Source of the DNA: Fragilaria crotonensis
Taxonomy: Eukaryota > Bacillariophyta > Fragilariophyceae > Fragilariales > Fragilariaceae
Length of the DNA: 64,000 bases
Reading direction: 5' to 3'
Assembly (NCBI GenBank): GCA_022925895.1
Contig: JAKSYS010000138.1
Coordinates: 1-64,000, forward strand
In this document: in pieces, positions 22,096 to 63,928 of the stretch
How positions within the stretch are numbered: position 1 is the first letter of the stretch
Layout of the letters: every line of letters starts with the position of its first letter
Notes under the pieces: generated by a model
What the model saw: only the letters and a program-made list of their open reading frames with translations
Told to the model about the DNA's origin: nothing
The model's database searches: none
Position numbers and translations under genes: made by a program

Positions 22096-24184
22096 TCAGA
22101 TCTCTGGTCCCGGTGATGAAAGCATGTGGTCGGGGAGAACACAGAAGATCTTGGTGAGGTGAGGATCAATTTTGCCGGAGTGTTGAGTCTTGGTGAGGAT
22201 ATCGGCAAGTTGGGAGTCACAGGGAATCCAATGAAGTTGGTGGATGCCGTCTTGTTGGCCTTGACGGACGAAGTGGAAACGGCGTTCAATGTGGCGAGTT
22301 TTGCGAGTGAGTTTGCCATTCTTGGCGATTTGAACAGTTGCTTCATTGTCAATCATGAGGATGGCAGGGATAGAAGGGAGACGTTGAGTGGTTTCACGCC
22401 ATTGTTTGGTGCCAAGATAGAGCATATCATAGAGAAGCATTCGGATGTGAGCGGTGGCCATGGTTGCAGAACATGCAGCCATGTATTCTGCTTCAGAGGT
22501 AGACATAGCGACAGGAGTTGGCATGGTAGAATTTGCTTCAATAAGAGCACCATTGTAGAAGATCATGTATCCAACAGTAGATCGGCCAGTATCGGGGCAG
22601 TCTTGCCAGCTGGCATCAGAGAAGACAGTGAGATCAGTGTATGGAATGCGATGATGGATGCAGATGTCATAGATGGGGTTTGAAGTGCCATCGGGATAGA
22701 ATTTGAGGGCATAGTAGGGACGACGTCGGAGGTAGCCAATGAGCCAGGTGAGAGCTCGAAAATCAGGTATGCCAGGAGAGATGCATGCTTTAGCAAGTTT
22801 GCAGACAGCAAATAGGATGTCAGCTCTTGTGTTGTATGCTAGGTAGAGGAGAGTGCAGACAGCAGAGCGGAACGGAAGGCGTTGTTGCTTTTGTTCGACG
22901 AGAGTCAGGTCGGAGGCGGTTACGGGGCGGTTATCCTTGCTGAAAGTATAATCGGGAGGGAAGGGAGTATCTCGTTCTGGGAATTCGGAGTTTGGATCGT
23001 ATCGTTGAAGAGTATTCAAAACATAGCGGTGCTGGTCGAGGGTGTAGCTTGAGTCGGAATGTTTGTGGATACGCATTTGTAGGAACCATTGCGCAGGGCC
23101 GAGGAATTTGACATCAAAGCGATTGCGGACGGAATCTTCAAATTGTTTTTCGATGGAGTCGTTGCTTCCAGCGTAGAGCATATCGTCGACGAAAAATAGT
23201 AGGCGGAGCCATTGATTGTGTTTGTCGTATCGGACAAAATAGGACGGTTCGGAAGGAGACTGGATAAAACCTTGGGAGTAGAGCCATTCCGAAAATTCAA
23301 TGTTCCAATATTTTCCGGAGTAGACAAGACCGTAGATTCCTTTGTTCAGTAACATTGGGGAGCCAAAGAATTTAGCGTATTCAGGAAGTGATAGGCGTAT
23401 TCCAATGGCAGTTTCACAAAGTGGCGACCAATAACTTTGGCTTGGAGGTAGGCACCAATGAAGTCAGCACTCTTGACACTTCTTCTGGATGCACAATGGT
23501 TGCAATGAATAGTTTGACCCCTCTTGCAGATGCACAGGGTGACCAGGTGTCTTCATACATGAGTGGTTCAACAGGTATAGGTTTTGGAGTGCCAGGTGAA
23601 GAGGTAGCAGATTCAGCAATTTCTTGACGTTGTTCAAGGAGTCGTTGTTGGTTGATGGCTTTAACTCTTTTCAGGAGACGTTTCTCCAGGTCGCCACGGG
23701 CGACAAGGCGAGCTTTTAGTTTGTCAAGTTTTCCAGATGCAGTTTGTTTTGCTTTGAGCACAAGTTTGACTGGGATAATGAGTTCATCTTTGTGTGGGGT
23801 TTGTCCAAGGATGAAGGTATCATGGTCAATGAGGTTCTTGATTTCCATTTTGATGGCATGTAACCAAGCATTGCGGACATCATCATCAAGTTTGAGGACA
23901 GCTTTCAGAGATTGTGGTTCTGGAAGGTATTTGTCCACAGATTCCATGGGAGTTGCTTGTGAATTGTTGCTGGGAGAGTTGTCAATAGTCATCATGGCAG
24001 AATGAATGGGATCAATAGTTGGTAGATCTTCATTGCATTCTTGGAAGTAGATGGTCATCATCTTGTGGAGTTGGGAATGATGTTGTTGATGGGTGACAAA
24101 GTTGATTTGATGTGGTGTGGGTGGTGTTGGACCATGTTGGATGATTGCTTCATTGTTATGGTCAGCATGGGTTGGGTTAGGCAT
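22096..24184 (-). other. Copia reverse transcriptase and RNase H region
   Basis: Within the element, 23414-24184 carries the start of the RT domain (KARLVARGD). The segment 22096-23355 carries the RT palm (LLFFVDDMLYAGS), then RNase H (VFSDASWQDCPDTGRSTVGY, MSTSEAEYMA), ending in LADILTK. Its state is covered in the entry for the whole element. Confidence 0.9.
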
Positions 24185-24516
24185 GGTTCCAGGTGGTTGT
24201 TCATCAGTATTGTCATCAGTTGATTCAGGGATGGCAGTCAGGGAGGGCAGTGGATTTGTGTCATCAATGAAGGTTGATGGTGGATTGCCAAGGTTGGCTG
24301 CAGATCCAGTTTGGTGAAAAGTAGATGGTTCAGAGTTTTCGGGAGTGTTGCAGAGTCCATTTGGGTTAAAATGGGAGCGGATGGGGACGGCTCCAGCGAA
24401 GGGTTTGGAATCAAAACATAGAGCTGAATTGAAGTCTTCATCAAAGTAGGCATCGCGGGTGATGACAAGGCTTTGGGGTTGGTCAGGGGGAGTAGACTAG
24501 CCAGCCTGCGGAGTTG

Positions 24517-26335
24517 TCAGGGGAAACCGAGGAAAATTCCGCGAGAGGCTCGTTGGAGTTGTTGCTTATATGTGATAAGCTTGTTGCGGAAAGTTGGTTC
24601 ATAGCGTTTGAAGAAGGTAGGACATCCAAAGACACGAAAGTTGGCAATGGAAGGCTTGCGTTGGAAGCTGTATTGATAGGGAGTTGTTGGGTTGCCATCT
24701 TGATCAATAACATTCTTGGCAGGGCAGACATTTAGGATTTGAACTGCATAGGCATGGGCATGATGGAAGAAGGCACCTCCAAGTCTTGCATTGTTGAGGA
24801 GAATGTTGGCAGTGTTGTGGACTTCACGCCATTTTGCTTCACAAATACCATTCATTTCTTGATGTTCAGGGGCTGCAGCTTCAACTTTGATACCAAGTGA
24901 GGTGCATTCAGAGATGAATTTTGTTGATGTAAAAGCAGATCCAGCATCAGTGCGGATGAAACGGACGGATTGGGTGCGGCCAAGTAGTTCTGTATCAGTC
25001 AGCCATTGCTTCAGAGCAATAAGGATGGAAGTTGTGCTTTCAGTTGGAAGACCAATCCAACCTGTTAGTTTGCCTGGGGTTGTGACAATAAACAGATAGG
25101 CTGAGTAGTTGGAATTGGTGGTGAGACCGTAGCGGAAAGGATTGCGCATAAGGTCAAGATGAAGGCGATGGAAGGGTTCTGTGCCTTGGCGTTGAGGCGT
25201 TTTGTTTCTGGCGCGTTTTTGACTGATGGAAATGCGGAGAGGCCAGGAGTTGTGGTCAACAGTAGGTGTGAGTACATGATCATTCCATGTTTGGTGAAGG
25301 GATCCAACCATGAGATTTCGAAAATTGCGGTAAGCAAGTCGTCGATAAATCAGTTCCAAAGGTAAGGCAGTGACTGAGCGGCGTTGATCAGTGTCAATGG
25401 GGGTTGTAGTGTCATCAAAGTGTTGCTCTTCTGGTTCAGAGTCAAGGTCAAAGGGAACTTTGGGGTTGGAAGTGGTTGAAAAGGCTTGGTGTGGATTTGG
25501 TACTTCTCTGGTGATAATTGGCCAAGTGTAGGTGGAGCCATTTGGGAGTTGAATGGTGGTAGCTCTGTTCTTGATCAGTACACTGAAATTTTGAGTGCAT
25601 GATAGAGCAGTCAGGGAGAGTAGTCTGTGACTTAGGCCTTCAACAAAGTAGACATCAGTGAGACCTAGGATGGATTTGAGGCCATCATCAGTGGTGAAGT
25701 GACATTCAGTTGTGCCTTTGTGGGTAGACATCTTGGTGCTGCCATCAGCTAGGGAGATTGGGACACTGCAGGGTTCAACATCACTGAGGTCGCTGAAAAG
25801 TGGTGTGTAATGGCTGGTAGCACCACTGTCAGGTAGCCAGTTTGCAAGGAGTGGGGGACCAAATCTTTGGTATGGTGATTGGGGGGTCATCAGGGAAATA
25901 AGCTGTGGCTCCAGAGTTGGGAGGAGCATGGTTGGCAGTTGGAAGATAATCTCTATCAAGTAGAGGTTGATTGATAGGCATCTGAGGTAGAGTGGGATTG
26001 GGCCATGGGATGTTGTCTTGTTGATCATCAAGTTGATCAAGGGAGGAAGCTTTGAAAGCTTGGTGATGGTATCTTGAATGATTTTGGGAGTCTTGACTAG
26101 AGTCAGTAACAAAGTAAGCGCGTTGTTGATTGCGAGGAGCAGCGTTTTCATTGTTGGTTGAACGTTGCGGGTTGGATGCGCGATTGTTTTGGTTGGATCT
26201 TGGGTTGGTACAGTTGCGCGAATAGTGGCCGAGGCGTCCGCAGTTATTGCAGACGATGGTAGCTGCGTTGGATGCAGAGTTGCGCGATTGATTGATGTTA
26301 GATCCATTGGGTGATGGTCGTTGATTTGGATTCAA
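24517..26335 (-). other. Copia zinc knuckle, protease and integrase region
   Basis: Within the element, 25829-26335 contains a CX2CX4HX4C zinc knuckle typical of Gag nucleocapsid. An overlapping frame at 24517-26307 contains the aspartic protease site (DSGATSHYT) and the integrase core, with LHLDL, FIRTDAGSAFTS and NGICEAKWREV as the catalytic D-D-E blocks. A frame overlap between gag and pol is usual in this family. Confidence 0.9.
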
Positions 26336-27302
26336 CGTTGGTCGGAAAGGTGGTCGATTGTTCCGTTGGGGTTGGTTGGATGGGCGAGGCGAAGGAGGTG
26401 GTGGGCGACGTTGATTCGGGTTGTTGAAAGGTGGTCGCGAAGGATTTGTAGGAGGTCGGAACGGGCGCGAATGGTTTTGCGGTGGTCTCGGTGGATGACT
26501 TCTGTTTTGATTGTTGCCATTAGGGTTTGAATATGGGCGAAGGATGGAGCTGAAAGCTTGTTGTTGACGTTGTGTGAAAACACGATGGGTAGTTTGGGGT
26601 GGCGCGATTGAAAATGGTGAGATTGTTGACGGGTAGAATGTGCGTGCTGATTGTAGTTGCGTTGATTCTGAGACGGTAGTGTGAGACCACGGGATTCGTC
26701 AATGTTGAGGAGATGGCTCTCAAGTTCGGCGAATGGTGGCAGAGCTTCGTCGTTTAGTTCAGCTCGGCGGATATCGGCGTCGAAGCGTTGATAAGATGCG
26801 GCGTAAAGGAGTGATTGCTTCCACCACGAACGGTGCGTTTGATGAGTTCGGCGTCGGTGTTGGGGATTCCAGCATGATAGCAGTCGCGCGTAAGGATGCG
26901 GATGCGGTTAAGGTAAGAGGTGGCGACTTCATGATGTGGTTGTTTGATGGAACAAAAGCTTCTCGAGTGCGCTCGACATGATCAGGAGTTAGCGGTGCAC
27001 AATGGCGTCGCAGAGTAAGAATCGCGGTGCGGGCGTCTGGTGGGCCATCAATGATGTGTTTTGGCAGGGTCGCAGACGTTTGTAAAGATCAGGTTGTAAA
27101 GTGCGGTGCCGACAAATGGGTGTGAATAAGAGACTTGTTTCGGCCAAAGATCAAAGACTTGGCGCGTCCACGGGAAATGTTGCAAACAATTCGAAGGTTG
27201 TCGATGAAGGTGTTAAAATGGCGGCGTGTGAAGATCGGTTGGGTAAGCCAATTTGCGAAGGTTTGCATTTTGGCGTACTTCAAAAGCGTCTTGGTTAGAT
27301 CT

Positions 27303-41782: not shown

Positions 41783-41792
41783 TTAATCTTCG
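41749..41792. repeat. 22-bp direct duplication over the EF-G stop codon
   Basis: Two identical adjacent 22-bp copies cover the last EF-G codons and the stop. The first stop in the transcript still ends the protein normally, so the second copy is untranslated. Confidence 0.9.
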
Positions 41793-44264
41793 TCCCTGGC
41801 GACGAAACCCTTCTTCAATTCATCCTCGATATTGGGAGGGCAGAAATCGTAGTTTGCAAGCTTCATGGAGTAGTTAGCACGTCCCTTCGACATGGAACGG
41901 AGAGTAGACACGTACTGGAACATATTGGCCAAAGGAACTTGGGCAGAGATTGTCTTGACGTTTCCTCGCTCTCCAAGATCTCCAACCATACCACGGCGAG
42001 CATTGATATCTCCAAGAATGTCTCCCATGTATTCCTCAGGCGTGGTAATATCGACTTGCATGAGGGGTTCCATAAGGCGAGCCTTGGCCTTTCGAAGACC
42101 TTCACGAGTGGCGGCGCGTCCGGCAATCTCGAAAGCCATGACGGAGGAGTCGACGTCGTGGTAAGCACCATCAACGAGAGTTGCCTTCATGCCGAGCACC
42201 GGGAACCCAGCAATCACACCCTGTCCGAGGACGGACTCGATACCCTTTTGTACACCAGGAATGTATTCCTTTGGAACACTGCCTCCCTTAATATCAGAAA
42301 CGAATTCGAAATCCATAGATCCTTCTTCATCCGAAAAATCCTTAGGCTCGAAAACCAACTTAATGCGAGCGTACTGTCCGGAACCTCCAGACTGCTTCTT
42401 GTGGACGTAGTCAATCTCAGCCTTGGTAGTGATAGCTTCTCGGTAAGACACTTGTGGCGCACCAACGTTGGCCTCGACGTTGTACTCGCGCTTCATTCGG
42501 TCGACAATGATCTCAAGGTGGAGCTCTCCCATGCCCTCAATGACAGTCTGGCCGGTCTCCTCGTCGCGCGAGAAACGGAAGGAAGGATCTTCAGCAGCAA
42601 GGCGCATGAGGGCCTCGCCCATCTTCTGTTGATCGGCCTTGGTCTTGGGTTCGACCGCAACCTTGATGACAGGTTCAGGGAAGTCCATCTTCTCAAGAAT
42701 CACGGCGTTGTTCTTGTCGCAAAGGGTCTCACCGGTGGTGGTATCCTTAAGGCCAACGAGGGCAACAATATCTCCAGCGACGGCAGACTTGATCTCGGTA
42801 CGCTCGTTTGCGTGCATCTGAAGCATACGTCCAATACGTTCATTCTTACCCTTGACAGAGTTGTAGACACTGGTTCCGGCCTCCATGACACCAGAATAGA
42901 TACGAGTAAAAGTCAAGGTGCCCACAAACGGATCGGTGGCGATCTTGAAGGCAAGAGCCGACAAAGGGTCGGCATCTGAGGATTGACGACTGGTTTCTTC
43001 ACCGTCTTCGGTAACTCCAGCGATAGCCTCAACATCCAAAGGCGAAGGCATGTAGTCTACGACAGCATCCAAAAGCGGCTGAACACCCTTGTTCTTGAAT
43101 GCAGTTCCCGTGACAACAGGAACGAAGGAGAGGTTGAGAGTTCCCTTGCGGATGAGCTTCTTCATGGTAGGAACATCTGGTTCCTCTCCCTCGAGGTATG
43201 CCATGAGGACGTCCTCGTCTTGTTCAACAGCAAGCTCGACAAGCTTCGCATGCCATTCGACAGCCTTCGTCTTGAGCTCGGCAGTGACAAGGGGATGGTC
43301 GCATTCATCAAGTGGGATTACATCGAAAGATGCTCCGAGGTCCTCCCCTCCCCAGATAACAGCCTCCATGGTAACAAGATCGATGACACCTGTGAATTCA
43401 CCCTCAGTTCCGATAGGAAGTTGAAGAACTGCGGGAGTGGCAGCGAGTAAACTGATGATAGTGTCAACGCAGAAATAGAAGTTGGCACCCGTTCGGTCCA
43501 TTTTATTGAGGAAGCACATTCGTGGAACCTTGTACTTGTCAGCCTGACGCCAGACAGTTTCGGTTTGTGGCTCAACACCGGCAACACCATCAAAAACAGC
43601 GACAGCACCATCAAGGACACGAAGGGAACGTTCAACTTCAAGAGTGAAATCGACGTGACCAGGTGTGTCAATAATGTTGATGCGGTGGTCCTTCCATGCG
43701 CAAGTGGTAGCAGCAGACGTGATGGTGATACCACGCTCTTGTTCTTGCTCCATCCAGTCCATTGTGGCTCCTCCCTCGTGGACTTCACCAATTTTGTAAG
43801 ACTTGCCCGTGTAGTAAAGAATACGTTCGGTAGTGGTGGTCTTTCCTGCATCAATGTGGGCCATGATACCAATATTACGGTAGAACTCAAGGTCGATTTC
43901 ACGTTGTTTGGCCGACGAAGCAACCTTCTTGTCGACTGTTTGAGCGACCATATTGAGAGCAGTAAGGCTCTAAGAGTGGGAGTGACGGCAGCATCAGAAA
44001 ACGAAGCAACAGATCATACTCCAGATAGGAAGGCATCACTGCGAAAAGCAATCTTCCACAAGGATCGATTCATTCCATCCTTCAGTGTATGAACTCACCT
44101 TGTCAGACGCGACAATTGACCCTTGAGCATTGACAACACGGTTGAACCCGTGAGTTGCTGGGCTCAACGGCGCTTTCAAGAAAGCAGCCCCGGGGGGCAA
44201 AAGCCCCAACCGAGGCGAGCGCCATGGCGAGAGCAGCAGCTCCTGCAAGTCCCTTGGAAACCAT
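41783..44264 (-). CDS. Plastid translation elongation factor G
   Basis: This GTPase drives ribosome translocation in the plastid. Exon 1 is 44099-44264, the intron is 43970-44098 (129 bp) and exon 2 is 41783-43969. The mature part is one clean frame with G1 [16 protein letters not shown]3 DTPGHVDF and G4 NKMDR, then domains II-V to the end (GFVARDED). The sequence is closest to bacterial/plastid EF-G. Exon 1 encodes a bipartite presequence: a signal peptide ending ASVGAFAP, the diatom cleavage motif for import through four membranes. The transit part ([17 protein letters not shown]) is read one base out of phase, with one base too many in the C/G run at about 44188-44197. That is probably a sequence error, because the rest is intact. 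Length is about 783 residues. Confidence 0.93.
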
Positions 44265-50931: not shown

Positions 50932-52068
50932 CGAATAGTGTCAACGACCGAGAACAGGCCTTCTCTCAGCACTTCTTTACATCGTCACCGCTCGGCGCGC
51001 TTGCATTTAGCGCCACTCCTCATGAACGTGTGCTATCTGATCAGCAATTTCCTATTATCTAACAAATCCGTTGGTTGTATCAACCTTACCTAGAAATTAT
51101 CGGCATACCACGCCTCTACTCTATCATGTTCGGTAAAATGAGCCCACTAGCCCAAGGTCAGGCGCCTTGGTTGATGCACTAAAACTTTCCCGTCTACACG
51201 CATACGTAGGCCAAGCATTCAACGCTCGAGTCGTTCGTGTATCATGAAAGCTAGGAATGGAATTGATCGTTCACCTCGGTCAACTTGGTGAGAGCTTTTC
51301 AATCATACCCATGCCTTGCGTAGAAAAGTGCCAGATAACATGCTCAGAAGACTGCCTTCCTCGTCATTCGTCGGGATGGAAAATGTGCCGTAAACTTGGT
51401 CATGGCTTGGATGGATAATCTGTTTCCCGAATCTCTTTTGGTCTTCGCAATTGGAGTTGTTCGAATAGATGCGTTTCAAGACGCTTGTACCCAGCGTGTT
51501 ACACCATCGACAGAGTTCGTTTCAGACGACAAAATTTTCAATCTGGCAGGTCAGAAAGGGGCTCGCACTGAGTAAAAACATGCGAACCCTGATAACCCGC
51601 GCTTCATTCATCATTCCCTTATCTTGCGCGGCAATAACACGTCAAACCTCTACAGTAGAGTATGTGATCTCCTCTTAGTCTGACATAAGTAAAATTGAAG
51701 GCGGGCTCTACTTCGAAAAATGACGTCACCTTAATCCAATCCGACACACCCCGAGCCGATGTCAGTATAAATAATTAAACAAACTCGAATACAGTTTATA
51801 TTTTCCTAAATAAACGTTTCGGCGAAGATATCATCTGCCCGTTAATACAACGGAGTAGTCAAGTAGAAGGCACTCACAAAACTGTCGACCGTAGTTCTGT
51901 GAAAAACTGGAAGACCACGGTCGCCAAAGCCTTCCATCACATTTGCTCCAAAGCGGGTGGTGTGTTGAGTGTTCATATCCAACTCACAATTTTAGCCATC
52001 TGAATCCTTTTCTTCTTTGATTGTCGCTTCAGCGTGTAGGTCCATTTCGAGACCGGCGTGTTGACACA
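50932..52068. other. Intergenic, 1.1 kb, no gene seen
   Basis: This lies between paralogue 2 and the first FYVE-like/RING gene. Only short frames without recognisable motifs occur. Confidence 0.5.
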
Positions 52069-54273
52069 ATGGTATTGAATCCAACGCACGCCACGCAAAG
52101 TCCGGCCCCGCATCGGCGTTCTGATAATGCCACGGGTGGCCCTTCGCGAGATGATGGAGAATGGACGGACTTTGACTCCTCATCTTTCTCGGGCAGTATC
52201 AAGCAGAGTCGTAAGAAGGGCACTGATCGAGTTGCGGCAGGAAAGCGTGGAGCGGTCCGATCATCTGCAACATCGTCAGTGACACCAAGCTGGATGAAAG
52301 CACCCATCAACAGCGATGCCTCTTGGATACCGCTTGCACCTCCTTTAGTTGCAACACAAGTCGATCATAGACTCACTATCAACGAACACGAAGGAGATGA
52401 TGCTCCTCGCGAGGGACCAGAGTTGATAGCTCCGCCATCGCCTGCCGTGCACCGGAGAGCTGCTCGCCAGGAGCAAAATCATCATGACGAATATGAGTCC
52501 AGGAATGACAAGGAATTAGGCACGATATCATCGAGCTCGCAGTACCCCAGGCGATCTGGGTTGGCGCATGGGGTCGAAACGCAATCACGCGACAACAATG
52601 GAACCCCGGTCCGCAGGGGTCGAACCACTACACGCGTTCCTTCAGAACCTCGACCTCGATCCAACAGTAGATCGAGTCCGGCGTATATCACTCAAACTCA
52701 GGACTCACGGACGAGACCTTCCACTCCAACCGGTAGGGGACGTTCGCGAAGCCACACCCCAGCGGCAGGCAACCGTCCTGCCCGTATGGCTCTAGCTGAA
52801 CGTTCACCGGAATTGATCCAAGCAGTTGATACTGGATGCTCAAGCAGTGTCGGACGAAAGCTTCCGAGACCTACCCGCACTCCCCGTGTGCCAAGGAGCG
52901 CCGGCGATGACAGAAGTGTCCGAACCATGGAAAGCGCCCGAACTCTGGATGCCAATATCGGTCGTAACGTCACATTCGGCTCTTCCTTACCCCCAAAATG
53001 TGAAATGTCGCCAATGTCCGCAAGGAAAGAAGGCGGCTTCATGGAAAAACTATTCGGTACACAAGGTGGCGCCGAGGCAAAAAAGATGTTCCGCAGGGAA
53101 AGCTCGTTGACAACGGGCAGTGACGTTTCTTTTCGGCTCCCTCAGCGAATTCATACAAGGATCTTGCTATCGGCCACTGTTTATCACAATACTGCAACAA
53201 ATTTATGGATAACCACCATCAACACGAACCAACGAGGCGTCAATACGAATCCTGCTGCAGCATCGAAGTTCCTTAAAGCGTTCTCCTTCTCGTCTGAGAA
53301 AGAAGCCCGCGAGTCTGCGATTGCAAACGCGCCTCCAAAGATGCTTCCATTCAGCGAAAATGAGAACTGCTTCATTTGCAGTGGAAAGTTTGCCGTCTTC
53401 CGACGTCCGAGTCATTGCAGGAATTGTGGGGTGTGTATCTGCAGTGGATGCACGACGACTTGGCCGTCAAGAATGATTCCTGAGATGTACAATCTCAAGA
53501 ATGAGACCAATGTGAATATCTGTAATAGCTGTGATTGGCTGAGCTATGCCTTCAAGAAAGCTTTGATCAAGGGGGACATTGAGGAAATAATCGCACTGTA
53601 CGGAACTGGAAACATCAACGTGCGATCTCCCTTCCCTGCGGGAAAGAGAGACAAGAAAGGGGAAACCATGCACCCTATTCACTGTGCTGTCGAGGGGGGC
53701 AACCTCAACGTCCTAAGGTGGCTGCTGGAGGAGCGATTTTGTCCGGTCAAAAGAATTGCAAGCGGAAATGGCAAGCAGAAGAGAGGAGAAGATATCCCTA
53801 TTCTTACATCCAAGGGTCGCTCGGTTTTGAGCATTGCAATGACTAATCTCAACGTGGAAATCGTCCGATACTTGGTTATCGATAAGAATGTTTCTGTCTA
53901 CGAAATGAAGGACTTGACCTTGTGTTTGCGTGTTCTTGAGTCTGCGTTAGTGTCGATTCCACGCCGCACTGTTCCGCTGCGAACCAGGGATATTGTGGCT
54001 CGATGGGCAGACGACGGATATGCTGGCGACGTCGCCTCCGACATCTCTGGCAGCATTCATGAGGTCGCAACTCACAATGAAGAATCCACTTTCGCGGGAA
54101 GCCGATGCACCACTGAGGTCGGCGACGCATGCATTATTTGCTATGATAGGGCTATTGATTGTGTCATTACGCCATGTGGACACCAAATCTGTTGTATGGC
54201 ATGCGCGGAGAATATGAGGAGTTGCCCAGTTTGCAATACAGAGTGTGCATTTATTCGCATCTTCAAACCATGA
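52069..54273 (+). CDS. FYVE-like/ankyrin/RING protein, gene 1 (predicted E3 ligase)
   Basis: A 734-residue intronless frame from the ATG at 52069. Residues 1-360 or so are disordered, rich in Ser, Arg, Pro and Thr. A conserved lead-in follows (LWITTINTNQRG, PPKMLPF). From about residue 434 comes an eight-cysteine FYVE-like finger: CFICSGKF, RRPSHCRNCG, CICSGC and CNSCDW. Ankyrin-like repeats run from about 534 to 640 (MHPIHCAVEGGNLNVLRWLL, GRSVLSIAMTNLNVEIVRYL). A C-terminal C3HC4 RING starts at residue 688 (CIICYD, CGHQICCMAC, CPVC). FYVE-like plus RING resembles animal CARP/RNF34 E3 ligases, which lack ankyrin repeats. The likely role is ubiquitin ligation at endomembranes, which is inference. 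Genes 2 and 3 share the architecture. Confidence 0.9.
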   Translation: MVLNPTHATQSPAPHRRSDNATGGPSRDDGEWTDFDSSSFSGSIKQSRKKGTDRVAAGKRGAVRSSATSSVTPSWMKAPINSDASWIPLAPPLVATQVDHRLTINEHEGDDAPREGPELIAPPSPAVHRRAARQEQNHHDEYESRNDKELGTISSSSQYPRRSGLAHGVETQSRDNNGTPVRRGRTTTRVPSEPRPRSNSRSSPAYITQTQDSRTRPSTPTGRGRSRSHTPAAGNRPARMALAERSPELIQAVDTGCSSSVGRKLPRPTRTPRVPRSAGDDRSVRTMESARTLDANIGRNVTFGSSLPPKCEMSPMSARKEGGFMEKLFGTQGGAEAKKMFRRESSLTTGSDVSFRLPQRIHTRILLSATVYHNTATNLWITTINTNQRGVNTNPAAASKFLKAFSFSSEKEARESAIANAPPKMLPFSENENCFICSGKFAVFRRPSHCRNCGVCICSGCTTTWPSRMIPEMYNLKNETNVNICNSCDWLSYAFKKALIKGDIEEIIALYGTGNINVRSPFPAGKRDKKGETMHPIHCAVEGGNLNVLRWLLEERFCPVKRIASGNGKQKRGEDIPILTSKGRSVLSIAMTNLNVEIVRYLVIDKNVSVYEMKDLTLCLRVLESALVSIPRRTVPLRTRDIVARWADDGYAGDVASDISGSIHEVATHNEESTFAGSRCTTEVGDACIICYDRAIDCVITPCGHQICCMACAENMRSCPVCNTECAFIRIFKP

Positions 54274-56126
54274 GGTCTATGCTTCAAGGAGCTCTGTCTG
54301 CAGAGAACAAGTAGCGTATCCTCTCTGATGTGACGCATTCCATTGGAGTGTTTCATGAGACAACAGATTTTGTCCAAATAAACTTACTCCGGCATTTTTA
54401 GTGCAGCAGGGCTACCTCTACTACTACTAGGAGTACTTCTAGTAATGACTTAAGCAAGATACAGAGCTTTTGCGCACAGATGCTCTCATCATCAATAGTT
54501 GCTGGCAGAGTACTTGTACCGCATAGAACGTTATGGTGTGTAGCAAAGTTCGTAACGACCATCCCGTACAACAGCAAAGCTTGCTTAAGCATGAAGAAAC
54601 GCGCTTATCGTTGTTTGGTTCAAATGCCGTGCTGAAATGCCTATCATGCACGACCACCTTCCTATAGTACGAATCTCCAGAGCTCCGCCCACCGTTTCTA
54701 CAACGGAGGGTGCAATCCAACTTCACCTTGTTCCACAAATGTAGCAGCATCATGCAGTTTTTTTCAAGACATGCTTTACAGCTTGACCGACCTTCGCGTT
54801 ATTTTTGTTACATTGCATGATGAGTTGACAGACAAACTGACTTTTTGGGATAGTCAACGGGGTCGATGAGAAGGCGAGTCAGAGGAAGGAAGGTAAAGCA
54901 ACCAAACACGTCATCAAACAAGCTGAAGTTGCCTCATCAGCGTCAATGTGCGAATAAAGGTTTTGACTTGAAACAGTACAAAAGAAGCATGAGGCGAACG
55001 CATTCTTCAAGCACTTTGTTTGAGCATGCGACATGGTACTACTCTTGTATTGACTTTCTGTGCTTGGAATTCGTTTCTACTCCAAGTATTGGTCAGTGTT
55101 CTGACACCAGCAGGAGGTTGAGCTCGGATGAGTTGTCATTCGGACTTGGATCCTCCATTATCAAAACAGGAGGGTTCATCACCGGTAGATACATTTCAGA
55201 GCAGTCTTTTGTGTCTTCAGTGGTCTTGGACCACGACATTGCTGTGGTGGAAACAACAATCCCGTCTACACTGATTTGAAGCATTGCACTGATTTCGAAG
55301 GCCGCACCACTGTTAAATGAAATCCTGATGGGCAGCAGGCACAGTTTGTTTGAAATTGTGGTATCTCGGTGCTTTATTCCTTATCATTCCCTCGAGCATG
55401 ATGCGTAATCTAACACTAACTATGCATCCCTGCAATTTTTTCGTTACGTGCCTTCGAACTCGGAATATTACGTATCGTCAGGTAAAAAGTAGCAGTATTC
55501 TTGTTGTTAACCATGGCACATGCACTACGGTTACCAGCCTCGTTGTTCAGACAAGTGCTGTGTGCTATCTTGGCTCTGATCACCTTCGTCCTGCCATGAG
55601 ATGTCATCCGATACACGCGACAATGGAGGATATATCCGATATCTCGGGTATCGCATAGATGACGTCGGTTAGTCGTAGTACCGTTACATATTGATACAAC
55701 GGTACAACGTACTCCAGTACTGTGCGTAAGAATTTGGGCTTACCGTACTATTTGTACAGTATTTGAGTATCAAAGTTGCTTGTACAGTACGCATGTACTG
55801 TAGTGCAATGTACCTTGTACGAGTACTGAAGTATCACGGACACCACAATCTCACCTCGAACCCTTAACACTCTATTCCCCGGAAACCCTAATCCTGAGAT
55901 GCTTTAAGTCGTATGCATGTACTTGCATTGTAACGGGTCGAAGTTGGCAGGCCAGAGTGTTGGCCAGTTATCAAGAGTGCAGACCGAAACAGCACACGCA
56001 ATACCACGCTCGAGAGGGGGCCCATCGATGAGGGACAGTTTCGATCGAACTACGATCGCTAGAATTGATTCACAGCCATAGCAAGGAGTCTGAGCTTTCT
56101 GAATCAGAGCAATAGATTCTAAGTCG
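54274..56126. other. Intergenic, 1.85 kb, no supported gene
   Basis: This lies between FYVE-like/RING genes 1 and 2. A frame at 54866-55279 is basic but shows no motif or sensible composition. A GTAC-rich run lies at about 55670-55830. I see no paralogue remnant. Confidence 0.5.
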
Positions 56127-59100
56127 ATGAAACGAAGAAGCGAAATGGACAAGAAACGAAAACCGTCGTCCGCTTCTTCGCTCCCACCAGCATTATCATC
56201 CTCGTCGCAGCACTACCTGACCAATAACGAGGATCTGCAATGCTCATCAACGGGATATTATTTGCATGGAGGTCCTGACGAAGCACACGCTACCGCAGCA
56301 TGTGGAGTCCAGGTGGAAGAGTCAGCGGAAGAGGTACTTCAAGCATCGATTAACTTTAGGAACGCACGCTCAAGTAATTCTTCTTATCTCAGGAATGGAG
56401 GGACCGTATACGCCCGAATGTTGTACCCATCCTTGGATGCAACGTCTTTTGACGCTCTTTCAGGAGAAGAGAAGCGAGAGGAGACAGAATTTGTCACGGT
56501 GGGAGCGTCAGCGCTCCCTGACGTAGTCTCTGTTTACTTCGAGGACGACGATCCTGTAACCCGAAAGCTATTGGAAGAAGAGCGTTTGATGCAGTCTGTG
56601 CGAACTGGATCTATGATGACATCCAAGGCGGTAGCGTCCCACGTGGAAGCTGAAGACTCGAAGCCTCCAGCTCAACAAGTTGCGTACGCATCAGCATATA
56701 ACGAGGATGAATCTCCTGACGATATAAACCTCGGAGTGAGAGCTGAGTTGGTTGGTGAATCGGACTTCTCGTCGTATCATGCCTTTTCCTCATCGTCCAT
56801 GAATGCAGTTGCGATGTCGAACGACGGCATTTTGACAGAGGAAGCGATAGTTCTCGACTCGAAGCCTGCTGCGTTACCGTCCCGGTGGAGCAATGAATCT
56901 GCGGAAGCAACTGTTCTTGGAGATTCCCCGCAAAATGTAGCTGTGTGGACAACACGTCATACAGGAGAAAATCTCGAAGAAATAGCAGTGACTGGAAGAG
57001 ACGAAGCAGAGGCAACGATTGTGGAAATTGCTGAAGACATTCATCCGGCGGATTTAGACTCGGATGGTGTTCAGGCTGAACTTATCGGGAGGGATTTCAG
57101 CCATGTCGCATCTCATCAAGGACATCAGTCTTGGGACATTTCAGAGCGAAGAGCTGTTGTATCAGAAGTATCGCCTGGGTATGCGATTGCGTGCGTAGAA
57201 AATGCTGTTGCCGACGAATCAATTCAAGGGACCATTGTTAGCTTCTCTGATGATTTTCACTCGGCTGGTCAAGGCGCATCGAGCCTGACAGCTCAATATG
57301 TTGGTAGGGATTACAGTCAAGGTGACTCGCTGGTTTGGACTGATTCTGATCAGCCTTTCGTGAATTCCGCAAGTCAAGTCTTTTCGGCGGGGGAACAACA
57401 CGCAATGGTCGTCGAGATTACGGAAAACCTCCACCCCGCCGACCTTGATGAGCCGGCAGTCCAGGCGGAGTTTGTCGGGCGCGACTTTAGTCAAGGTGAG
57501 CTTCTCGAAGGAAGTCAGGCTTGGGCTGAACCTGCCGGTCGACAGGCGAATGTTGTATTCGACGATTTCGCGGTGGTCACCGCGTCTAATTTTGATAGAG
57601 TAGGTGGTGGCACGGGTAACGTTGAGGCAGATGCAGCTGTTGTGGCGTTCGCTCATGGAATGGAACGCAATGGTCCTAGTGCGGAACCGGTAGGACGCAT
57701 TGTTGGGCGTGCTGAGTCGTTTCCGGGAACCCCTCAGCACGCGCATGCTCTGCTGGTATCTCCGGTCGGAATCGGCCACAGATCCGTGTCTGCTCCAGGC
57801 TGTCACACTCCTTTGGAATATGACCACAACAATCTGACAGCAAGACTTGCCGCAGATACGCACCCGATGAATGCCATGCATCCAGTGAAGGAAACGCCCC
57901 CACCGATTCCACCGCGTTCTGCAGCTGGACGGGAACTCTCCTATAATAGCAACGGAAGTCAGTTTTCGATGGGTAGCTCTAATGGAGAAACCGGGAATGG
58001 CGTTCAACAGTCCGCTTCCTCTCGAAGCGCAAGTGCTGGTAGCGTCTCAAACAGCGGAGAGCTCCTATCACAGGCTCAGAGGGCTGTTAGTCGGAGTAGA
58101 GCAAATGTTTTGAGGCACACAAACAATGTCAGAGATCGATGGTTTGGGTGTGATCCAAACAGGACCAACTTTGATTTATCACACTCGGCGGGATCGATTC
58201 TGTCCAGGACCTTGTTGCCGTGGTCTGTGTTTCCGAGTGAAACAACAGGAATGTGGGTAGCCACTGTCAATACGAACCAGAAGGCTTTGGATAGCAATGA
58301 CATTGTGGAAGCGTCGAAAGCTCTCCGAGCGTTCTCAGTTCCGACAAGAGAGCAGGCTGAGGCATTGGCCAGTGCATGGGCGCCGCCGCGTATGCTTCCA
58401 TTTGCCAAGAATAGTAGGTGCTTCATCTGCGAAGCCAGATTTGCTGTTTTCAAGCGACCTTGTCACTGTCGAAACTGCGGCGTGTGCGTGTGCTCTGCTT
58501 GTACAGTGCAGTGGCCCTCAAAGATGATTCCCGATACCTACAATATAAAGCAAGAAAGCATTGTAAACATTTGCAAGAGCTGCGATTGGTTGTGCTCAGC
58601 CTTTCGAATGGCGTTACTTGATGGTAATCTTGAGCAGGCCGTTGTCATTCATTCAACGAACAACGTCAATTTAGTGACTCCCTTCGCAAACGTTAAGGGC
58701 GAACTCTTGTAAGTACCGTTGCAGTAATAATCAGAATCGATCGCTGATCCTCACAATTTTCATCCTCAGCTATCCGGTCCATTGCGCCGTGCTAGGTGGT
58801 AGTCTAGACCTCCTCCAATGGCTTGTGGACACTCATTGCTGTCCATTGCGCTCCATACGTATCAGCGGGAAAACAAGACAGTCCTCTGGGAGCTTCACTC
58901 CGATTTTAACCTCGCGCGGACGTTCGTTGCTTGGGATCGCAATTGAAAAAGAAAAGATTGACCTGGTAAGGTACCTCGTTGTGGACAAGGGTATGCCTCT
59001 TGCAGGAGAAAAGGATTTGAATACGAGCACGCTGATTCGTCTGCTCGACCGGATACTTCGAGAACTCCCGCCATACAACAAAAGTGAATTGTTTCCACCC

Positions 59101-59528
59101 ACGTCTCCAAGACCAGGGAAGAATGCTTCTTCCGGAAATATGACACCGGTTCCACCGACGGTTCCACCGACTCCAACTCGTTTGGGTTCGGTTGCCGATT
59201 CCGGCTCAGGTCGGCAATCGGAAGAATCGTGGCGTGCTGATGAGGCCCTCGCCTACGAATTGGCTGAACAAGCACGGCGCGAACAGGACTCACAAGGGTC
59301 TGTCGACGATGCCGTAAGTGGATGAATGATGAAGGAGCATTTGTCTGATTATGTCTAACCTTGTTTCGTTTTCGCCATCAGTGCATCATTTGCTTCGCCA
59401 ACTCAATCGACTGTGTGGTCACACCATGCGGTCATCAAATTTGTTGTATGCAGTGCAGCACTAATATCTCTCGCTGCCCCGTATGCGGTGTGGACTGTTG
59501 CTTCATCAAAGTCTTTCGAGCCAACTAG
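56127..59528 (+). CDS. FYVE-like/ankyrin/RING protein, gene 2 (predicted E3 ligase)
   Basis: The exons are 56127-58708, 58770-59313 and 59382-59528, giving 1090 residues. Introns are 61 and 68 bp. The long N-terminal part (1-620) is acidic and contains several diverged copies of a module like HPADLD, VQAEFVGRDFSQG. The same core as gene 1 follows: lead-in (MWVATVNTNQKA, PPRMLPF), finger from about residue 765 (CFICEARF, KRPCHCRNCG, CVCSAC, CKSCDW), ankyrin-like repeats (YPVHCAVLGGSLDLLQWL, GRSLLGIAIEKEKIDLVRYL), and RING from residue 1043 (CIICFA, CGHQICCMQC, CPVC). The introns fall just before YPVHCAV (phase 2) and just before the RING (phase 0). A ubiquitin-ligase role is inferred; substrates are unknown. 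Confidence 0.92.
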
Positions 59529-59674
59529 GCAGGCTTTACCTAAATGCCGCTCCTGGATGTTGTTCATGTAACTTTTACTTTGCAAAATGTGTACCTTATT
59601 CTACTTGTTGATTAGATTGGCAGTCTCAAGTCCCGGAAGCAGATTCTCCGATGCAAACATCCCCAGTCTCATAT

Positions 59675-60890
59675 TCATTGTCGAAAGATTTTGAGCGTGT
59701 TGCATTCTACGTTACAAAGTGGGCACCTTGTGAGCTTGCTCCCGCAACCGAAGCAGCAAAGTTGATGTCCACATGGGGTCATGACACAATCCATGGGATG
59801 TTCGAAACACAAGTTGCACTATACGTGAACGATGTGTGTGAGCGACCTTACATGATGCACTAGGCATTGCACGGCCATTGTCCACACTTACGGCATCATC
59901 AATAGTGGCGACAGATTCTTCGGCGAAGCTCTCAACTATGGCAGGCATGTCCGCATTAACTTCTGACGCGTCCCGAGTAGTAGAAGCCCCGCATCTTAGG
60001 AGGGCCTCCAGGGTACTAGTCGCTAGATTTGGATTGCTGGCGTCCTTGAGAGACATATTATGTTTGACGACGAGGTATCTGAGGATGTCGATCTTTGGCT
60101 TGCCAGTCATTGCAAAGTCGATCAACGTGTTGTCGCAAGAAGTTCGAAGACTCAGATTGCGACCAGTCCTAGGATTTCGCTTGACAGAGATCGGGCATTC
60201 GTGTGTCTCCACCAACCATTGAAGGAGCTGAAGGTTCCCTCCTTTGACAGCGCAGTGCACAGGGAACCTAGTCGAAGGCGGGACGAAAGTTAGTGAAACC
60301 TATTGGCTGAAGGAAAGGGGGCATGCGTCGTATCTCACTCACATTGCTTCGTGGTTGATATCTGCGAAGCAAGACCTTAAATTCACGTTTCCGGAGGCAA
60401 ACAACGTCTTTGCGTCTAGTATACTTCCTCCCTTGAGAAGAGTTATACAAAACGAATTGCTTAGCCAGTCACATCTGGTACACACACGGGCAGTGAGCGA
60501 TTGCTGTGAAACGTAGGTCTTCGGTAGCATGCGAATTGCCCACCTAGTGCTGCACTTGTCACAAATACAAACCCCGCAATTCCGACAGGAACATGGTCGA
60601 CATTTAGTGGTGTAGCGGACTGCACAAATATGACAAGTTTCAGTGAAAGGATGCATCTTGGGGGGAGAGTAGGCCTTTGCAAACTTCTTTGCTTCAATTT
60701 CTGAGGCGAATTTAAAATACATGGTTCTCGATTGGGTGATACCTGTTGGCTCTGTTCGCTCGTGACGTGAGATTGTTGCAACCCAGTGCCTCGTCATTGT
60801 GTTGAAGTGAACAGAATATGGCTCCAACGTACGCCGCTGGACCCCCTCCGGCATTAACGAAACATCAAAGCGCGTCGACACAGGAGCCAT
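59675..60890 (-). CDS. FYVE-like/ankyrin/RING protein, gene 3 (predicted E3 ligase)
   Basis: The exons are 60343-60890, 59892-60267 and 59675-59818, giving 355 residues. Introns are 75 and 73 bp. It has almost no N-terminal extension: lead-in (HWVATISRHERT, PPKMHPF), finger from about residue 85 (CHICAVRY, CRPCSCRNCG, CICDKC, CTRCDW), ankyrin-like repeats (FPVHCAVKGGNLQLLQWLVE, KIDILRYLVV), and RING (CNLCFE, CGHQLCCFGC, CPLC) ending KIFRQ. The RING is found only after splicing out 59819-59891; the unspliced frame runs on into unrelated sequence. Both introns sit at the positions seen in gene 2. It converges tail to tail with gene 2, 146 bp apart. The start may lie further upstream, since a frame at 60865-61185 precedes it. 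Confidence 0.85.
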
Positions 60891-61623: not shown

Positions 61624-63928
61624 TTACTCCTTAGCCTCGCGCTCCTTCTTGTACTTGGCCATCAATTCCTCTTGGACGTTTCTTGGAACCGGGACATGTT
61701 TCAAATACTCCATAGTAAATTCTCCCTTCCCTTGCGTTTGACTGCGAAGCTCTGTGGAGTACCCAAACATATTAGCAAGTGGCACCTCGGCTACAATCTT
61801 GATACCACTTCCATCGTCGTTGACATCGCTAGATTGAATCATACCCATTCGCTTGTTCAAACCAGCCACCACAGTTCCCTGAAAATCGGAGGGCACTTCT
61901 ACCTCCACGGACATAACGGGCTCCAGCACGGCGGCGTTCGCTCGCTTCATGGAATCTCGAATTCCGTTTGCCATAGCAATGCGGAATGCCATATCAGAGG
62001 AATCAACGGCATGGCTGGCACCATCTAGAAGGACCACACGAACACCTTCAACTTCTGCGCCAACCAAGGCACCAACTACCATGGCGTCCTCCATTCCTTT
62101 TTGGCACGACGAGTAGTATTCAGGAGGAATGTTTGTTCCGGTACAGCGATTGACGAATTCATTCACCTTGTTGGATTCCTTCATTTCTTCTTCAGTTAAA
62201 GGCTCGATGAAGCCAATAACTTTGGCATACTGACCAGACCCGCCAGTTTGCTTCTTATGCAACCAGTCGTACTCGACCTTCGTGCTAATTGTCTCTTTGT
62301 AGTTGACATTCGGTTGTCCGACTTCACACTCGACTTTATATTCACGATTCATTCGTTCAATGTACACTTCCAGGTGAAGTTCGCCCATCCCACTGAGGAT
62401 CGTTTCCTTCGTTTCGGAATCAACCTTGACTCGCAAGGTTGGATCTTCCTTGGAAAACTTGTTCAAAGCCTTGGCAAAAGCGTCTTGCATGTCCTTCTTT
62501 TTGGGCTTGACAGCCAAACTCATCACTGGTTCGGGCACAAACATGCTACTCATAGCCAGGTTCATTGCTCCGTCTGAGAAAGTATCCATGGACTTGCAGT
62601 CCACCCCAAACATGGCTACAACTTCACCTGCGACGGCCTCGTCAATCTCTTCCATATCATCCGAATGCATTCGAACAATACGAGCCAACTTGATTTTCTT
62701 TCCGTCGCTGACATTTGTTATCACTTGACCCTTCTTGAGCTTTCCTTGGTAAACACGCATATATGTAAGTTGTCCGAAGTTAGTTTCTTCCAGTTTAAAA
62801 GCAAGGGCCAAAAGAGAGCCGTTGCTATCGCCCGATACCTTCACAGGGATTTCATCGTTGTAGCGATCCAATGCGAAGTTTTCTTTCTCTTGTGGTGCTG
62901 GAAGGTAGTCTACAACACCATCTAACAGCGACTGAACACCCTTGTTCTTGAAAGCAGACCCCATAAAAACGGGAACAAATTTGCAAGCAACCGTCTGACG
63001 GCGAATCGCTGCCTTGAGAAGCTCGGTGTCCGGCATTTCTTCCATCAGAAACATTTCAGCAATTTCATCATCGCAGTCCGCAACTCGCTCAACTAATTCA
63101 AGTCGCTTTTCTTCCACTTGCTCCATAAGTTCAGCAGGTATATCTTTCTCGATAACCTTTTCACCTTTTTCCCCGTCAAAGAAGTAAGCCTTTTGCTCTA
63201 TCAAGTCCACGACACCTCGGTGCTCGCCTTCAAGTCCAAGAGGAATCTGAACAGCAGCCGCATTCAACTTTAGCTGATTTCGAAGATCACCAATAACTTT
63301 CCAAGGGTTTGAACCTGTTCGATCCAACTTGTTGACAAATGCTAGGCGAGGAACATTGTACCGCTTCATTTGACGATCCACGGTCAACGATTGCGACTGA
63401 ACACCCGAGACCCCGCAGAGGACCATAATGGCTCCATCCAAGACACGCAAGGCGCGTTCAACCTCAATAGTAAAGTCAACGTGACCGGGAGTATCAATGA
63501 TATTAATGTGGCAATCCTTCCATCGGCAAAAAGTGGCAGCCGATTGAATGGTGATACCTTTTTCTCGCTCTAGATCCATAGAGTCCATCTTGGCTCCGAC
63601 GCCATCCTTGCCTCGAACGTCATGAATCGAATTGATTCGCCCAGTATAGTAAAGAATGCGCTCAGTGAGAGTTGTTTTGCCGCTGCGAATTAGATGTAGG
63701 AAAATTTCGTGAGTACAGTGGCACGAACCCGCAGATGCATTGGCATTTCAAGGAGAAGCAAATTTGATTAGTGTACCTGTCAATGTGAGCACTGATGCCT
63801 ATATTTCGGTGCTTGTGATTTTCAGAAGAGAACCAGCGCTGACCATTGATTATGGATGAACACATTGCCGACCGAAAGACCGGTGCTCTGTGGGACGCGA
63901 GACGAAGCATCGTCGCTACAGTCGCCAT
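61624..63928 (-). CDS. Mitochondrial translation elongation factor G
   Basis: This GTPase drives translocation on mitochondrial ribosomes (EF-G1 type). Exon 1 is 63777-63928, the intron is 63683-63776 (94 bp, GTACAC...TCGCAG) and exon 2 is 61624-63682. The intron splits the P-loop; splicing gives [13 protein letters not shown]. Also visible are [40 protein letters not shown] and a Lys-rich C-terminus. The N-terminus is basic and hydroxylated without acidic residues ([19 protein letters not shown], then RWFSSE), a mitochondrial presequence. Another in-frame ATG at 63970 could serve as start. Length is about 736 residues. It is a paralogue of the plastid EF-G 18 kb away but clearly diverged. 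Confidence 0.93.

Follow-up and report, generated by a model that had tools for sequence, protein, structure and literature searches.

What does a diatom do with three adjacent genes whose products each join a FYVE-type zinc finger, ankyrin repeats and a C-terminal RING? The question is raised by a 64,000-nucleotide stretch of Fragilaria crotonensis DNA (assembly GCA_022925895.1, contig JAKSYS010000138.1, positions 1 to 64,000 of the forward strand; the whole stretch is called the window here), in which a sequence-only reading had placed three such genes at 52069-60890. These end coordinates turned out to be the ATG codons of the outer two genes, A on the plus strand (52069) and C on the minus strand (60890), with gene B (+) between them. 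The trio is real, and we consider it likely that A, B and C are paralogous, dimeric RING-type E3 ubiquitin ligases in which the finger, the ankyrin repeats and a lead-in module ahead of the finger would serve as targeting parts. In this reading the domains, their order, the intact zinc ligands, the tail motif and the gene structure are taken from the sequence, and from these we infer ligase activity, dimerisation, cell location and substrates.

Three genes with a common core

The genes and their parts are listed below, with the evidence for each in brackets.

52069-54273 (+): gene A, single exon, 734 residues (gene model; open frame 52021-54273)
53131-53352 (+): A, lead-in module, 74 residues, orphan (core alignment; no Pfam match for the A copy, and a profile of all three sequences unmatched in PDB)
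53368-53532 (+): A, FYVE-type finger with eight cysteines, residues 434-488 (Pfam FYVE 39.2 bits, PDB matches, shuffle test)
53641-53889 (+): A, ankyrin repeats, residues 525-607 (above cut-off for Pfam Ank_4, Ank_3 and Ank)
54124-54273 (+): A, C-terminal RING and tail, ending RIFKP (Pfam zf-C3HC4_3; top PDB match XIAP)
56127-58708 (+): B exon 1, long N-terminus, lead-in at 58170-58403 and finger at 58419-58583 (gene model, Pfam)
57024-57524 (+): B, degenerate N-terminal repeats HPADLD...VQAExxGRDFS (sequence; no other genome match at E<=0.1)
58709-58769 (+): B intron 1, 61 bp, phase 2 (gene model)
58770-59313 (+): B exon 2, ankyrin repeats (Pfam Ank_3 on the exon alone)
59314-59381 (+): B intron 2, 68 bp, phase 0 (gene model)
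59382-59528 (+): B exon 3, RING and tail, ending KVFRAN (gene model, Pfam, PDB matches)
60343-60890 (-): C exon 1, lead-in at 60645-60869 and finger at 60471-60635 (gene model, Pfam)
60268-60342 (-): C intron 1, 75 bp, phase 2, placed as B intron 1 (gene model, core alignment)
59892-60267 (-): C exon 2, ankyrin-like repeats (homology to A and B; Pfam below cut-off only)
59819-59891 (-): C intron 2, 73 bp, phase 0, placed as B intron 2 (gene model, core alignment)
59675-59818 (-): C exon 3, RING and tail, ending KIFRQ (gene model, Pfam)

Alignment and Pfam agree that the three products, of which B has 1090 and C 355 residues, all run from lead-in through finger and ankyrin repeats to RING. The cores align end to end, at 46% identity between A and B, 41% between A and C, and 137 of 346 aligned residues between B and C, while 433, 764 and 85 residues precede the first finger cysteine in A, B and C. 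Both the common order and the shared core behind unlike N-termini (put at about 430, 760 and 85 residues) had been claimed from the sequence alone, and both are borne out.

The three genes have diverged as coding sequences. Changes at codon positions 1/2/3 numbered 162/126/259 for A-B (376 codons), 158/112/222 for A-C (343 codons) and 166/124/228 for B-C (346 codons); position 3 thus changes most in all pairs, the pattern expected of coding sequence under selection. Despite divergence to 40-46% identity, all 16 zinc ligands are retained in the three cores. In addition, the finger runs straight into the ankyrin region (C-x-x-C-D-W-L, then the first helix-like stretch), and this direct adjacency suggests that finger and ankyrin repeats form a single targeting block.

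The RING and its C-terminal tail

All three RINGs scored above the Pfam zf-C3HC4_3 cut-off of 27.0 bits (A 38.4, B 29.7, C 32.6). The closest solved structures are the RINGs of XIAP, cIAP1/2, BIRC7 and MYLIP, with XIAP as the top PDB match for A; the C3HC4 zinc ligands occur with XIAP spacing and are complete in A, B and C, and the proline of the RING motif CP[VL]C is retained in the three copies. The proteins end in R-I-F-K-P (A), K-V-F-R-A-N (B) and K-I-F-R-Q (C), with phenylalanine third or fourth from the C-terminus, and thereby carry the basic-x-aromatic tail of IAP-type RING ligases as RIF, KVF and KIF. In cIAP1, the corresponding Arg614-x-Phe616 packs in trans on the donor ubiquitin held by the E2 of the other subunit, and the F616H variant is defective in E2 discharge (PMC6349121). 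By analogy, the IAP/XIAP-type RING of the diatom proteins would dimerise, and the basic-x-Phe tail would act in trans to keep E2-bound donor ubiquitin in place.

The FYVE-type finger

The eight cysteines of the finger are spaced as in FYVE domains, and the similarity extends to other residues, which places it in the FYVE fold family. Against a Pfam FYVE cut-off of 27.8 bits, A (39.2) and B (31.1) scored above and C below (25.2 for exon 1 alone, 22.3 at full length); in single-sequence comparison, the A finger matched solved FYVE domains with a best E of 4.4e-06. Part of the Pfam score reflects cysteine spacing, since Pfam also matched shuffled sequences in which cysteines and histidines were preserved: three of five shuffled A fingers gave FYVE matches at E<=0.01, including one above cut-off at 29.1 bits, and one of five shuffled A RINGs matched at the same threshold. 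Because of these matches, we took 1000 Cys/His-preserving shuffles for each domain of each gene and scored them against two small profiles, one of seven canonical FYVE fingers and one of four IAP-like RINGs. Real scores were reached by 0 of 1000 shuffles in each of the six cases (finger and RING of A, B and C), in a test that favours A, as five of the seven profile fingers and one of the four profile RINGs had been picked as earlier matches to A. The assignment of the finger to the FYVE type and of the C-terminus to the C3HC4 RINGs, both made originally from the letters alone, therefore held.

PI3P-binding (phosphatidylinositol 3-phosphate) FYVE domains carry a W-x-x-D motif ahead of the first cysteine. 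It is present as WMPD in the C238 FYVE protein of this genome (62.1 Mb searched, in 881 contigs) and absent from the trio, where the corresponding stretches read PKMLPFSENEN (A), PRMLPFAKNSR (B) and PKMHPFTET (C). The canonical lipid site R-R-H-H-C-R (PMC2837644) is likewise not conserved: A reads R-P-S-H-C-R, B R-P-C-H-C-R and C R-P-C-S-C-R, compared with R-K-H-H-C-R in Vps27, so that no copy has the R(R/K)HHCR form. The second basic residue is proline in all three, and one histidine is lost in A and B and both in C. Loss of the basic residue, of the histidine(s) and of W-x-x-D makes it unlikely that the finger is a canonical PI3P reader. The genome has seven other FYVE matches, and of the six read at this site, C238, C199 and C103 retain R-R-H-H-C-R, and C7, C24 and C173 do not. 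As a separate observation, two near-identical FYVE-like fingers on two contigs (L010 and L011) carry R-S-L-H-C-R at the lipid site.

These residues bear on the explanation that the proteins are endosome-bound ligases whose finger reads PI3P and which ubiquitinate trafficking cargo. The finger is FYVE-related by sequence, the FYVE-like domain of RFFL is described as giving PI3P binding together with palmitoylation (PMC12211564), and endosome localisation of Upa1 from Ustilago maydis is mediated by its FYVE domain (PMC4466420). Moreover, altered sites occur among plant FYVE domains, and one such domain from Arabidopsis bound PtdIns(3,4,5)P3 (phosphatidylinositol 3,4,5-trisphosphate) better than PI3P in vitro (PMC2837644). 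The substitutions and the missing W-x-x-D described above argue in the other direction, as does the fact that three other FYVE matches of this genome do keep the full site. We regard PI3P-directed, endosomal ligases as an unlikely explanation. In the ligase reading that we favour, the finger would probably be a zinc-stabilised protein or membrane contact.

Ankyrin repeats, lead-in module and N-termini

The ankyrin-like repeats that had been proposed for all three proteins are clear in A, which scored above cut-off for three (Ank_4, Ank_3, Ank) of the five Pfam ankyrin families matched. In B, Ank_3 reached 24.5 bits (cut-off 22.3) for exon 2 alone and no family passed its cut-off at full length, and C was below all Pfam cut-offs. 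As their own scores are weak, the assignment in B and C follows from homology to A.

The lead-in module spans about 75 residues, with 17 invariant among 78 alignment columns. No Pfam match was found for the A copy, one of the three copies gave only a chance-level match to Nup35_RRM_2 (E 0.13), and a three-sequence profile had no PDB match. A guess that the module is AP2-like, based on a pattern of tryptophan and helix, was dropped for want of a supporting Pfam or PDB match; AP2 itself gave no match in this genome that could be compared with it.

Ahead of the core, the long N-terminus of B holds several degenerate repeats, which had no match elsewhere in the genome at E<=0.1. Pfam scans of full-length A, B and C list no PAM2 motif, although no search was aimed at PAM2, and an NCBIfam scan of A and of the first two exons of B gave no match. 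No clear membrane helix was seen, the highest 19-residue hydropathy means of the three proteins being 1.45, 1.29 and 1.14. In the proposed ligases, lead-in, degenerate finger and short ankyrin stack would together make up the targeting and substrate-binding half, and the differing N-termini, proposed from the sequence alone to set specificity, may add regulation.

The arrangement within this genome

When the A core from lead-in to ankyrin (266 residues, without the RING) was used as a query against the genome at E<=0.01, five of the six matches lay within A, B and C. The sixth was the FYVE domain of a frame that combines FYVE and Cpn60, which we take to be Fab1-like. A fourth or broken copy of the gene was sought by tblastn over the window, where nothing else fell below E 0.3. 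Genome-wide, at least 10 FYVE and at least 25 RING matches were counted, and the only FYVE matches within 2 kb of a RING match were those of A, B and C (3 of 10). Chance neighbourhood was rejected, as 0.016 FYVE-RING pairs within 2 kb would be expected and three were found; three duplicates are, of course, not three independent events. Ankyrin matches, 209 at E<=1e-6, were too broad to inform.

Two further observations concern proteins with one or two of these parts. A 616-residue frame on C173 (L012, 1041-2888, minus strand) places ankyrin repeats ahead of a degenerate FYVE domain, has no RING match and is weakly similar to the A core (E 0.004 over 36 residues); its C-terminal stretch matches Synaptobrevin below cut-off (22.7 vs 26.4 bits), giving an ankyrin-FYVE-SNARE-like arrangement. 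On contig C12, two genes (L014, 2-1066, and L015, 445-1752) combine a ubiquitin-like domain with an IAP-type RING and end in RVYM and RVFM, respectively; their middle part resembles a 2OG-Fe(II) oxygenase by eye.

Evidence against the proposed ligases

Several results weigh against the reading that we favour. The residue after the last RING cysteine is N, G and N in A, B and C, so that the arginine linchpin is absent; XIAP also lacks it, having tyrosine there, and is a ligase, although arginine at this position raises its activity (PMC12326332). Counted from the last RING cysteine, the tail aromatic stands at +10; of three other RINGs examined in this genome, two have it at +11 and the third has no aromatic within the first 20 residues after that cysteine. 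The ankyrin matches of B and C score weakly, and the RING of Upa1 was dispensable under the conditions tested, where FYVE-driven endosome binding mattered (PMC4466420).

The missing arginine, and a phenylalanine one position short of the two other RINGs, would fit proteins whose RING serves for dimerisation or as a scaffold and lacks transfer activity. We think such pseudo-ligases improbable. All zinc ligands, the proline of CP[VL]C and the basic-x-Phe tail have persisted while the three copies diverged to 40-46% identity.

Relation to known proteins

The sequence-only reading had regarded the combination of the three domains as undescribed. This part had to be dropped, because all three are known together in fungi and the kind of protein is not new. 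Upa1, an endosomal adapter for mRNA transport, has PAM2 motifs, five ankyrin repeats, a FYVE domain and a RING (PMC4466420), and a Piromyces finnis protein is tabulated with ankyrin, FYVE and RING in a survey that also mentions RING finger and ankyrin repeats alongside FYVE for fungi and for its plant set (PMC9324892). What stands is the order: no published description of finger-ankyrin-RING was found, within a literature whose subscription papers, figures and supplements are not searchable and may hold one, and no paper in searchable text joined FYVE, ankyrin and RING with diatom or protist, or FYVE, ankyrin and E3 ubiquitin with Phaeodactylum. From the sequence, what sets the trio apart from known proteins is its order, its orphan module and its degenerate finger. 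Searches for relatives in viral contigs (47 pattern matches, none confirmed) and prokaryote genomes (49 pattern matches, none confirmed) say nothing about conservation, as diatoms lie outside the intended content of both collections.

Within the stramenopiles, the nearest proteins are the AF proteins, PsAF1-10 and their counterparts in oomycetes and diatoms, which resemble the trio in having ankyrin and FYVE in one protein. They number 10-12 in oomycetes, 4 in a diatom (Nitzschia inconspicua) and 2 in a brown alga (PMC10912746). In the accessible text, the stramenopile proteins are described as ankyrin plus FYVE only or with TPR (named for PsAF5, PsAF6 and N. inconspicua), and a third domain is ascribed to the AFs of animals and fungi; no word starting with 'ring' was counted in this text (PMC10912746). 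The trio might be AF proteins bearing a RING, that is, one-piece adapters and ligases in selective autophagy, including mitophagy. PsAF5 connects prohibitin 2 to ATG8, the H2O2-induced mitochondrial ubiquitination seen in the wild type is blocked in PsAF5 deletions, and a ligase other than Parkin is suspected in that system (PMC10912746); in addition, A has a W-x-x-L preceded by acidic residues at residue 86. ATG8-type patterns number three in A and five others in B, C has none, and the pattern is so short that it carries little weight. The genome also has the separate, ankyrin-first frame on C173, which has no RING match and resembles the A core only weakly. That the trio acts as such AF-type adapters and ligases in autophagy seems to us very improbable.

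Upa1 is alike in having ankyrin, FYVE and a C-terminal RING in one protein, and it ties mRNA transport to endosomes with a dispensable RING (PMC4466420). The diatom N-termini are likewise long or variable, and the trio could be conceived as membrane-bound scaffolds of this sort, with a cargo (mRNA-protein particles, for instance) bound by the ankyrin repeats and by motifs near the N-terminus, and with a RING of minor importance. The order of Upa1 is ankyrin-FYVE-RING, as its truncations imply (PMC4466420), whereas the diatom ankyrin repeats lie between finger and RING; where Upa1 has N-terminal PAM2 motifs and needs its FYVE domain for endosome binding (PMC4466420), the diatom proteins have an orphan lead-in and a finger that lacks the canonical lipid-site residues. 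Furthermore, the RING is the part of the trio with the strongest solved relatives. We see only a slim chance that the trio works in this way.

The remaining families share fewer parts with the trio. RFFL (CARP2/rififylin), RNF34 (CARP1) and yeast Pib1, compared here by description, also join a FYVE or FYVE-like finger to a RING; the diatom proteins have a lead-in and ankyrin repeats in addition. XB3-type plant ligases combine ankyrin repeats with a RING. They and the plant ANK-RF proteins, ankyrin repeats plus RING with 17 members in soybean (PMC7658197), have no FYVE finger, unlike the trio, in which every copy has one. RFFL is endosomal and, like RNF34, pairs a FYVE-like finger with a RING (PMC12211564); the authors of the Upa1 study liken its C-terminal architecture to Pib1 and rififylin, which differ from it in having no ankyrin repeats (PMC4466420). 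ANKFY1 (rabankyrin-5) has ankyrin repeats and FYVE and is tabulated without a RING in a survey (PMC9324892). The IAP family (XIAP, cIAP1/2, BIRC7) and MYLIP share the RING type and the basic-x-Phe tail and differ in the remaining protein parts. Surveys list RING FYVE proteins in plants (PMC6118397) and both Ank and zf-C3HC4 among FYVE partners, whether together not being stated (PMC2837644).

Gene structure

Gene A has one exon, and genes B and C have three each. All four introns of B and C are GT-AG. In both genes, intron 1 lies two residues ahead of the ankyrin motif P-V-H-C-A-V and intron 2 immediately ahead of the first RING cysteine, with identical phases; when the intron DNA of B and C was aligned, donor sites matched up for intron 2 and, by itself, not for intron 1. 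Gene A has neither intron, which may reflect intron loss or a retrocopy. C intron 2 contains a second possible acceptor, an AG further upstream, after which comes TGCATCAT, the identical letters that open the RING exon of B; its use would give a truncated product ending before the RING, and it is possibly a shifted acceptor or a site of alternative splicing.

That finger/ankyrin and RING belong to separate transcripts, the three-part protein being an artefact of gene models made from DNA alone, might be argued from this acceptor and from the RING of B and C lying on its own exon, and is scarcely credible given that A holds all parts in one uninterrupted frame and that the introns of B and C coincide in place and phase. 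This objection, which the sequence-only reading had raised against itself, is weakened on DNA evidence.

Other features of the window and genome

Two EF-G-like genes were recognised by eye at 41783-43969 and 61624-63747 (-), about 18 kb apart, one of them just past gene C. At 22096-26698 (-), inside a GC-skew island at about 22-33 kb, pieces with a zinc knuckle, integrase, reverse transcriptase and RNase H resemble, by eye, a retroelement of the Copia type. Genome-wide, 19 matches to the silicon transporter family were counted, in keeping with a diatom. Outside the window, a 1456-residue frame on C97 (29749-33762) contains three silicon-transporter units; silicon-transporter fusions occur in other diatoms.

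Significance

If the targets of these ligases are ordinary, the finding would be of interest mainly to algal cell biologists. A bolder idea, to which we attach very little probability, is that the trio is a one-polypeptide family of AF-type adapter and E3 ligase that would act like Parkin in the quality control of diatom organelles. If true, the fusion would point to a partnership of AF proteins and RING proteins in oomycetes behind PsAF5-dependent mitochondrial ubiquitination, and the rearranged order would mark an arrangement independent of fungal Upa1. To what is known from fungi, the locus adds three diverged diatom copies with a different domain order, and a defined orphan module beside a FYVE-type finger that lacks the lipid-site residues. 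It also gives a concrete test of whether stramenopile ankyrin-plus-FYVE adapters work with a ligase.

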